A DNA stretch of 64,000 nucleotides, taken from Protaetiibacter sp. SSC-01 (GTDB lineage: Bacteria; Actinomycetota; Actinomycetes; Actinomycetales; Microbacteriaceae). Positions 16,655 to 33,219 of the stretch are shown here, piece after piece; position 1 is the stretch's first letter, and each line of letters begins with the position of its first letter. The notes under the pieces are model-generated. The model did no database searches and was not told the origin of the DNA. It worked only from the letters and a program-made list of their open reading frames with translations. Location of the stretch: the NCBI RefSeq assembly GCF_014483895.1, contig NZ_CP059987.1, positions 496,001-560,000 of the forward strand, in the 5' to 3' direction. Both the position numbers and the translations under genes were made by a program.

Positions 16655-16748
16655 TAGTCTGGCACCTGTCGCGACTGGCGTTCGGATGGGTCACCATCGG
16701 GGAGCGACGAACACGTGAACGGCGGCCGTACGCCTGGGCCGCCCCCAG
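16655..16748 (+). promoter_or_regulatory. Promoter and ZTP riboswitch (pfl motif) upstream of glyA
   Basis: TAGTCT (16655-16660) is a -10 box that puts the transcript start near 16667. The RNA then shows the pfl/ZTP hallmarks in order: GCGACTGGCG (16671-16680), GGGTCACCATCGGGGAGCGA (16688-16707) and the 3' CGCCTGGGC (16731-16739). These are the conserved cores of the ZTP/ZMP-sensing riboswitch. ZTP signals shortage of 10-formyl-THF and switches on one-carbon genes such as glyA. The rest of the leader (16749-16777) would hold the expression platform. Confidence 0.92.
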
Positions 16749-29924: not shown

Positions 29925-29936
29925 GACGGTCTTCCC

Positions 29937-29978
29937 GAGTCAGTCTTGTCGTGGTGCGGGTACTGCTCCCTCGTCCGC
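29937..29978 (-). promoter_or_regulatory. Guanidine-III riboswitch (ykkC-III) upstream of the SMR pair
   Basis: Read on the gene's strand the RNA contains CGGACGAGG, GUACCCG and GACAAGAC in the order and spacing of the ykkC-III motif. The stems are conserved by covariation: GCGG pairs with CCGC, and GAG-CAGU with ACUGACUC around one extra base. The start of the ribosome-binding site GGGAAG follows directly, so guanidinium probably frees translation. A TACCCT hexamer (30005-30010) is a likely -10. Confidence 0.92.
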
Positions 29979-30084
29979 GAGGCCGGATGCGGGCCTCCGA
30001 CACCAGGGTAGCGAGCGTCGCCGGGCAGCGGCTGTGCACGCGTCGTCGTCGGCGCAGGTCGCCCGCTCCTGAGAGGATCGGGGG

Positions 30085-31291: not shown

Positions 31292-31924
31292 ATGGCCGAC
31301 GACTTCCACAAGCCGACGCTCTTCGGGGGGCGCGAGTTCGAGGCGTACGAGGGCGCAGCCCCCGACCCGGCCGTCAGCCGCCGCATCGCACACGACACGG
31401 CGCGAGCGCTCGTCGCGCGCGTACGAGACAGCGACGACCCCGAGGTGCTCGACCGCGTCGTGCGGCTCACCGACGAGCACGGGCTCGACGCGATCGCCGA
31501 GCTGTGGGCGCTGTCCGGCCCGCACACCCTGCCGGGAGCGCTGTGGCGCATCTACCTGCTGCGGGCGATGATCTCGAGCGACCCCGACGGCGTCGCCCTG
31601 CTGTTCCAGCGCGGCACCGAGGTGCTGCGCACGATCGACCCGGTCGTCGCCGGCGCCCCGACCCCCGCCGGGCCGGACGAGGTGCTGGAGCTGTCGAACC
31701 GCATCCTCCGCGGCGTCTTCGAGGGAGACCTCGCTCACGCGCTCGAGCGCGCGGCGGCGTTCTGCCGCGTCGAGGCGGCGGGAGCCGCATCCGTCGCCGA
31801 CGACCAGGAGACACCCGCGCCCGAGCGCTCGACGACGCTCACGACGCGGGCCTCGCGGCTCACGACGATCGCCGACGACCTCGCGATCTGCGCCCGGATG
31901 GCGCACGACGGCTCGCTCGACTGA
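31292..31924 (+). CDS. Conserved actinobacterial hypothetical protein (often mislabelled RNA polymerase beta)
   Basis: The 210-residue protein starts MADDFHKPTLFGGREFEAY and contains LPGALWRIYLLRAMISSDP and ILRGVFEGDLAHALERAAAFC. It looks helical and soluble and resembles actinobacterial proteins that databases sometimes name RNA polymerase beta subunit; nothing here resembles polymerase. Function is unknown. GAGAAT (31280-31285) lies 6 nt before the ATG, so it is probably leaderless. No neighbour explains it. Confidence 0.7.
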   Translation: MADDFHKPTLFGGREFEAYEGAAPDPAVSRRIAHDTARALVARVRDSDDPEVLDRVVRLTDEHGLDAIAELWALSGPHTLPGALWRIYLLRAMISSDPDGVALLFQRGTEVLRTIDPVVAGAPTPAGPDEVLELSNRILRGVFEGDLAHALERAAAFCRVEAAGAASVADDQETPAPERSTTLTTRASRLTTIADDLAICARMAHDGSLD

Positions 31925-32060
31925 CGCGGCCGGGCACGCCGCATCCGTTTCGCCGCATCCGTCCCGCTGCATCCGTTCCGCCGCTCGGCGGCCAGTCACC
32001 GTACCGTCCCCCGTATCCGCCTCACCGCGCCCGCACCCCGCATCCGCTGCAGGCTCCCCA

Positions 32061-32148
32061 CCTCAGAAATGCAGGAGATCCGCGTCCGGATGCCGGTAGC
32101 TGCGGATGCCGTCGGTGTTCGCTGGGAGCATCTCCTGCATTTCTGAGG
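32061..32148. repeat. Large inverted repeat, 19-bp perfect arms
   Basis: CCTCAGAAATGCAGGAGAT (32061-32079) and its exact complement (32130-32148) flank 50 bp. The loop holds GGATGCCG twice. It resembles a REPIN, and the arm shares GCAGGAG with the repeat at 32298-32422. The gene-free stretch 31925-32439 holds this, the RNA candidate and that second repeat. Confidence 0.9.
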
Positions 32149-32175
32149 TCGCCGGGACGCATCCCGCACCTCGCG

Positions 32176-32265
32176 TAAACTGTAGGAGCCGGGCCGCAGT
32201 AACCCCGGGCTCCACTCTTAGCCGCTTCGAGCGGCCTCGCGCCGAGAGGCGTTCTGCGGCCCGGC
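32176..32265 (+). ncRNA. Candidate small structured RNA with its own promoter
   Basis: TAAACT (32176-32181) is a -10 box of the type found before leaderless genes here, which predicts a start at 32188. That base is also the first of a perfect 12-bp stem: GCCGGGCCGCAG (32188-32199) pairs with CTGCGGCCCGGC (32254-32265). Inside are two hairpins, GCCGCT-TCG-AGCGGC (32221-32235) and GCGCC-GAGA-GGCGT (32239-32252), and a 21-nt unpaired segment rich in C (32200-32220). The 78-nt RNA matches no family I recognise; tRNA, SRP RNA and 6S features are absent. A repeat-derived palindrome is an alternative. Confidence 0.5.
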
Positions 32266-32297
32266 ACTCACATGTCCGGGCTCTGCGCGCCGCGGAA

Positions 32298-32422
32298 GCT
32301 GTTGTGCAGGAGTTCGGGTTCGCCGAATCGCCCCCACGGGCGCAAATCAACCTCGGGTGCTAGATATCAGCCGCCGAGCGGCGCTCGGATCCTGCACAAC
32401 AGCAGAACTCCTGCACAACAGC
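32298..32422. repeat. Inverted repeat (18-bp perfect arms) with a tandem half-copy
   Basis: GCTGTTGTGCAGGAGTTC (32298-32315) is exactly complementary to 32405-32422. The 14-base CCTGCACAACAGCA occurs at 32391-32404 and again at 32410-32423, a 19-bp step. It ends shortly before the pstB stop codon and may terminate the pst transcript. Confidence 0.88.
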
Positions 32423-32439
32423 ATCCCTCCCTGCGCGGC

Positions 32440-33219
32440 TCACCCGAACTTGCCCGAGACGTAGTCCTCGGTGGCCTTCACCGACGGCATCGAGAAGATC
32501 TTCGTCGTGTCGTCGTACTCGATGAGCTTGCCCGGCTTGCCCGTGCCCTCGATGTTGAAGAACGCCGTGCGATCGGAGACGCGCGAGGCCTGCTGCATGT
32601 TGTGGGTCACGATGACGATCGTGTACTCCTTCTTGAGCTCCTCGATGAGGTCCTCGATCGCGAGCGTCGAGATGGGGTCGAGGGCCGAGCACGGCTCGTC
32701 CATGAGGATGATCTCGGGCGAGACGGCGATCGTGCGCGCGATGCACAGACGCTGCTGCTGACCTCCGGAGAGGCCCGAGCCGGGGCGGTCGAGGCGGTCC
32801 TTCACCTCGTTCCACAGGTTCGCGCCCCGCAGTGAGCGCTCGACGAGGTCGTCGGCATCCGTCTTCGAGATCTTGCGGTTGTTGAGCCGCACGCCCGCGA
32901 GCACGTTCTCGCGGATCGACATCGTCGGGAACGGGTTCGGCCGCTGGAACACCATGCCCACCTGCCGCCGCACGAGCACGGGGTCGACGCCCGGGCCGTA
33001 GAGGTTGTTGCCGTCGATGAGCACCTCGCCGTCGACGCGCGCGCCCGGGATGACCTCGTGCATGCGGTTGAGGGTGCGGATGAAGGTCGACTTTCCGCAG
33101 CCGGACGGGCCGATGAAGGCGGTCACCGTGCGCGGCTCGATCGTGAGCGTCACACCCTCTACGGCGCGGAAGGCGCCGTAGTAGACGTCGAGGTCGCGGA
33201 CTTCGATGCGCTTGGACAT
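32440..33219 (-). CDS. pstB: Phosphate ABC transporter ATPase
   Basis: This 259-residue ATPase has the Walker [10 protein letters not shown], the signature [15 protein letters not shown], the Walker [13 protein letters not shown] and the PstB-specific [15 protein letters not shown]. It drives phosphate uptake through PstA and PstC. It is the last gene of the pstSCAB operon and lies 45 bp after pstA. Confidence 0.97.

Follow-up and report, generated by a model that had tools for sequence, protein, structure and literature searches.

A conserved structured RNA of Actinomycetes as a candidate stress-regulatory small RNA

The locus and the fold of the RNA

The window analysed here is a 64,000-nt stretch of DNA from Protaetiibacter sp. 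SSC-01 (contig NZ_CP059987.1, positions 496,001 to 560,000). Between a gene for a conserved protein of unknown function and a convergent pstB it carries a 78-nt structured element made of three helices, P1, P2 and P3, and a C-rich strand. The features of the locus, in window coordinates, are the following:

31292..31921, + strand: neighbouring gene for a conserved 210-aa protein of unknown function, adjoining the RNA in most Micrococcales loci
32176..32181, + strand: -10 box TAAACT, sigma-A-type by its sequence, with a TANNNT counterpart at the same position in 173/219 loci
32188..32265, + strand: whole gene of the 78-nt structured small RNA, predicted 5′ end at 32188; covariance-model match with orthologues order- and class-wide
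32188..32199, + strand: 5′ strand of helix P1, GCCGGGCCGCAG, the perfect complement of the 3′ strand
32200..32202, + strand: bulged U followed by AA, the 5′ side of a 2-bp extension of P1, assigned from comparative pair combinations
32203..32214, + strand: invariant single-stranded core CCCCGGGCUCCA, defined on 48 class-wide sequences
32215..32220, + strand: A/U-rich variable spacer, differing in length and sequence across the class-wide alignment A6
32221..32235, + strand: P2 hairpin GCCGC(UUCGA)GCGGC, kept in A6
32240..32251, + strand: P3 hairpin CGCC(GAGA)GGCG with a GNRA-type loop, the loop type being kept in A6
32252..32253, + strand: UU, the 3′ side of the 2-bp P1 extension, assigned from comparative pair combinations
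32254..32265, + strand: 3′ strand of P1, CTGCGGCCCGGC, placed by fold and covariation
32440..33219, − strand: pstB (TIGR00972, 363.9 bits), convergent with the RNA and so not a cis target

An earlier note on this DNA had pointed to the TAAACT box, which is present in the sequence, and to a perfect 12-bp stem enclosing two hairpins. This stem is likewise seen (32188-32199 with 32254-32265), and the fold lies well below that of shuffled sequences: the energy of 32188-32265 is -45.9 kcal/mol, where shuffles average -34.5 (z -3.65; 0/200 as low). The same note described a 21-nt C-rich single strand, which corresponds to 32200-32220. The stretch is indeed C-rich but not fully single-stranded, for it starts with the bulged U at 32200 and continues with two base pairs (32201-32202 with 32252-32253). 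Within the window the covariance model scores 108.8 bits on the plus strand and 33.6 on the minus strand, which assigns the RNA to the plus strand. The 2.96-Mb host genome holds one copy, ruling out a dispersed repeat.

Repeats of other kinds lie in the flanking intergenic DNA. Short 14-nt-spaced repeats of CGCCGCATCCGT(T/C) occupy 31937-32028, after the 210-aa gene. At 32060-32149 the two arms of a 20-bp perfect inverted repeat, ACCTCAGAAATGCAGGAGAT, are separated by 50 nt; its 16-nt core occurs three times in the genome, and several congeners (loci L007 and L009 among them) have similar sequence in the corresponding intergenic region. The ‘pst-side repeat’ at 32294-32427, in the gap that separates the RNA from pstB, comprises three copies (one inverted) of TCCTGCACAACAGC, with 22-nt arms that are 95 % complementary.

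Conservation and covariation across the class

All nine genomes of the host's genus carry the RNA. It was found by BLAST in 266 of the 269 good genomes of the family and by a covariance model (R1) in 279 of the 281 good genomes of the order, where it is nearly always single. With a broader covariance model (R2), a sample of the class Actinomycetes gave the RNA in at least 145 of 222 good genomes, a lower bound owing to strict filters. The phylum-wide sample yielded no convincing match in other classes of the phylum, the lone match having an E value of 0.048. A pattern scan of named genomes recovered the RNA in Streptomyces, Kitasatospora, Cellulomonas, Brevibacterium, Bifidobacterium, Actinomyces, Arcanobacterium, Rothia, Kocuria, Microbacterium, Leifsonia, Agromyces and a Mycobacterium. 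Several genome-reduced lineages are without it, so the RNA is dispensable in some cells, and a few genomes of other families have two to four copies. At one locus (L112) a tandem pair lies about 180 nt apart, each RNA with its own SigR-type promoter upstream.

Among records of mobile type, the RNA is carried by an unannotated faecal ‘phage’ scaffold, by two megaplasmids of Arthrobacter and by a single contig from a viral collection. An origin as a phage gene was ruled out, as the copies examined sit in the same chromosomal-type neighbourhood.

To score covariation, 48 diverse class-wide sequences were aligned (A6) and 23 base pairs were evaluated. Changes on both sides of a pair with pairing kept occur at 17 of these pairs, in 115 cells of the alignment, whereas shuffled alignments average 27 and none of 500 reaches the observed value. 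Cells are paired in 93.9 % of cases in A6 versus 33-44 % when the partner is slid, and RNAalifold independently returned the same three helices. Compensatory changes in the stem across relatives, proposed by the earlier note as a check on its reading, were therefore found, and the random decay of the stem that it set against this reading was not seen, pairing being maintained through all of these double changes.

The outer part of P1 shows both-side changes at all 9 of its pairs in A6 and is 99.8 % paired. Across relatives these 9 bp are usually followed by 3 bp, a bulged base and a 2-bp extension, the last occurring as AA/UU, AG/CU, GG/CC, GA/UC, UG/CA or UA/UA. P2 has the consensus GYCGC-UNCGA-GCGRC with a loop that is mostly UNCGA, and its second pair alternates between C-G and U-A in 12 sequences of A6. 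P3 follows GCC-GNRA-GGC, the loop being GAGA, GUGA or GCGA in 46 of the 48 rows and GACA in the other 2. In A6 the core CCCCGG..C.A varies little or not at all, with C17-C19, G21, G22, C26 and A27 identical in all 48 sequences. The loops of the RNA are conserved more strongly than its stem, and the conservation of P2 and P3 with their loops exceeds what base-pairing alone requires. Two related class members (L116 and L117) have an enlarged P2 region, giving an RNA of 106-111 nt, and possibly represent a subfamily.

Promoters, terminators and gene neighbourhood

Upstream of the RNA, a TANNNT box starts 9-16 nt 5′ of P1 in 173 of 219 loci versus 1.0 % of 14,750 control windows. The commonest distance from TANNNT to stem, 12 nt, is also that of the window. 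The agreement of -10 box and stem start on a single base, from which the earlier note drew its confidence, is thus a pattern that holds class-wide. In this genome the RNA would be transcribed from a sigma-A promoter.

A motif of the form GGAA[T/C]-N17-19-GTT lies upstream in 89 of 224 loci versus 13 of 4,445 control windows (0.3 %), a ratio that is not to be read as a probability because the loci share kinship and are not phylogenetically independent, many of them being from Streptomyces. The spacer is 18 in 60 loci; the GTT stands mostly 11-14 nt 5′ of P1 and overlaps the TANNNT box in 63/90 cases. The SigR promoter consensus is GGAAT-N18-19-GTT (PMC9205884). The stronger argument comes from the spread of this promoter type over many families, Streptomyces, Mycobacterium, Cellulomonas, Georgenia and Microbacterium among them, and it points to SigR/SigH control of the RNA in many genera. 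The GGAAT -35 element is absent from the window's own upstream sequence and from the eight genus members examined, which have the TANNNT -10 box only; stress control may therefore have been lost in this genus.

Terminator-like hairpins were found within 90 nt downstream of the RNA in 30/219 loci versus 18/1,671 controls, the Streptomyces locus L099 being an example. As two convergent genes flank the strong GC-rich stem, the element could be taken for a bidirectional terminator or for a structured 3′ UTR lying between the 210-aa gene and pstB, in either case functionless as an RNA. We hold this to be very improbable: in the window no U-run follows the element, conservation is higher in the loops than in the stem, a dedicated promoter is kept across the class and the structure persists in unrelated gene contexts.

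Genus-wide (nine genomes) the RNA lies between the 210-aa gene upstream and the convergent pstB downstream. The 210-aa protein, which has no match in Pfam or NCBIfam, is encoded upstream of the RNA on the same strand in 109 of 224 loci (Micrococcales and related). Further genes come and go around the RNA. In 31-32 loci, as in Arthrobacter (L120), DUF47 and PiT phosphate transporter genes follow directly 3′ on the same strand; pstB is near the RNA in 49 loci; and the Streptomyces copy (L099) is flanked by a UvrD-type (HelD-like) helicase and malic enzyme, HU lying farther out. In 19 loci of related genera (Microbacterium-like, Curtobacterium) the RNA is inverted between the same neighbours, so that the upstream gene is now 3′ and in opposite sense.

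The DUF47-PiT context in Arthrobacter first prompted the idea that the RNA acts in cis on a phosphate-uptake operon (DUF47-PiT or pst), as a leader or riboswitch that would terminate transcription or expose the downstream gene according to phosphate, and the pstB that adjoins the RNA in the window fits the same idea. However, no same-strand gene follows the RNA in the window, and phosphate genes were not found near the RNA in the Streptomyces and Mycobacterium loci. A separate terminator often follows the RNA, even in Rothia, although DUF47-PiT comes next there. Given the change of neighbours, the inversion and the separate terminators, we rejected this explanation, which appears improbable. 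The suggestion of a leader ending before the pst-side repeat, also made in the earlier note, is likewise unsupported: pstB, which comes next, is encoded on the other strand, and among related genera the RNA occurs in either orientation relative to its neighbours. Varying neighbours and inversion in some groups mean that the RNA is not the leader of one gene and argue that it acts in trans or as an RNP.

Proposed function and relation to known RNAs

At the gathering threshold no Rfam 15 family matches the window RNA or 12 homologous loci, and permissive Rfam scans of the window, Streptomyces and Mycobacterium copies gave chance-level matches only. This agrees with the initial impression that the element resembles no known class. 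The reading of it as a small structured RNA, so far unrecognised and equipped with its own promoter, is now backed by covariation, class-wide conservation, the conserved promoter position and the lack of an Rfam match. The accessible literature yielded no description of the class-wide family, its structure or a SigR/SigH link.

One member of the family has probably been seen before. In Streptomyces, SCO2952 is HelD (PMC8655204) and SCO2951 is malic enzyme (PMC7494193), and the sRNA scr2952 lies between these two genes, as the Streptomyces family copy does between their orthologues. The Streptomyces member is thus probably scr2952, an identity by locus position rather than by sequence or strand. 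PMC8388888, citing Vockenhuber et al. 2011, reports that expression of scr2952 is confirmed and that over half of the Streptomyces tested conserve it; the paper also places scr2952 in Rfam, yet the Streptomyces locus here matches no Rfam 15 family. In the literature searched scr2952 is uncharacterised, with nothing on a class-wide family, a structure or a link to SigR.

We propose that 32188-32265 encodes a free-standing, trans-acting structured sRNA, driven by sigma-A here and by a SigR/SigH-type promoter in many genera, with an ancestral role in thiol-oxidative stress; we give this reading a probability of roughly 0.6. Probably, then, it is an overlooked stress-regulatory RNA. In this RNA P1 locks the two ends together, and P2 with its UNCGA loop, P3 with its GNRA loop and the three-way junction present the C-rich strand CCCCGGGCUCCA. 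Transcription in many genera would proceed also, or only, from the SigR/SigH-type promoter, and on account of this promoter the ancestral role would most likely lie in the thiol-oxidative (disulfide) stress response. The C-rich strand would do the work, through brief base pairing with G-rich translation-start regions of mRNAs or as the binding site of a conserved protein or RNP. We favour a stress sRNA that would offer the invariant core to mRNA or protein.

If the core pairs with mRNAs, these would be complementary to CCCCGGGC[U/C]C. The 12-nt core has no perfect complement in the genome except the RNA gene itself, and in 12 genomes perfect core complements are no commoner than those of a reversed control. 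Long antisense targeting by the core is thus unsupported, which leaves short-seed pairing or protein binding. Within the role of a regulatory sRNA, short-seed pairing with G-rich start regions has even to slightly better than even odds.

Protein binding could also be the whole of the function. The junction, the GNRA loop, the UNCGA loop and the C-rich strand would then form an RNP or a decoy, a stress-time site for, e.g., RNA polymerase, Rho, a ribonuclease or a ribosome factor. Across the class the core and both hairpins hardly vary, which speaks for this, as do the closed ends of the RNA and the lack of a long complementary target. The protein partner is hypothetical, however, and the main text of an RNA polymerase RIP-seq paper on S. 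coelicolor highlights scr3559 and scr0792, with scr2952 absent from that text. We regard this reading as rather unlikely. A bolder and still more doubtful form of it would make the RNA a core, class-defining RNA of Actinomycetes: a new thiol-stress RNP whose rigid junction offers CCCCGGGCUCCA to a universally conserved protein from the machinery of transcription, decay or the ribosome. It would be the equivalent, in function, of 6S RNA for disulfide stress, so far missed by annotation.

Like OxyS and other proteobacterial sRNAs under stress-sigma control, the present RNA is a small RNA apparently controlled by a regulator of oxidative stress; it has no sequence or structural kinship with these sRNAs and is without an Hfq-type U-rich tail. 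Ms1 and 6S-type RNAs are, like the present RNA, conserved actinobacterial non-coding RNAs, but Ms1 is several times longer and imitates an open promoter, and the present RNA gave no Rfam match to any Ms1/6S-type family.

An RNA kept by 99 % of the order and shared by Streptomyces, Bifidobacterium, Mycobacterium, Cellulomonas and Microbacterium is yet absent from Rfam and is therefore omitted by Rfam-dependent annotation. The SigR/SigH-type promoter that recurs in the family offers a physiological setting that can be tested, thiol-oxidative stress, and makes the RNA a candidate stress sRNA of wide conservation within a group that has few sRNAs of known function; in mycobacteria no Hfq homologue is known (PMC4109619).

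6C RNA (RF01066) is also small and actinobacterial with C-rich single-stranded segments. It carries these in two C-rich hairpin loops, whereas the present RNA combines a three-way junction with one C-rich strand, and RF01066 does not match it. The genome's only match to the 6C model lies elsewhere, at 2485325-2485400 (42.1 bits, below the cut-off of 47). The window itself holds matches to known riboswitch classes: a ZMP/ZTP riboswitch at 16661-16746 on the plus strand (55.3 bits), and a guanidine-III riboswitch at 29934-30000 on the minus strand (42.8 bits), just upstream of two short minus-strand ORFs for putative SMR-type transporters.
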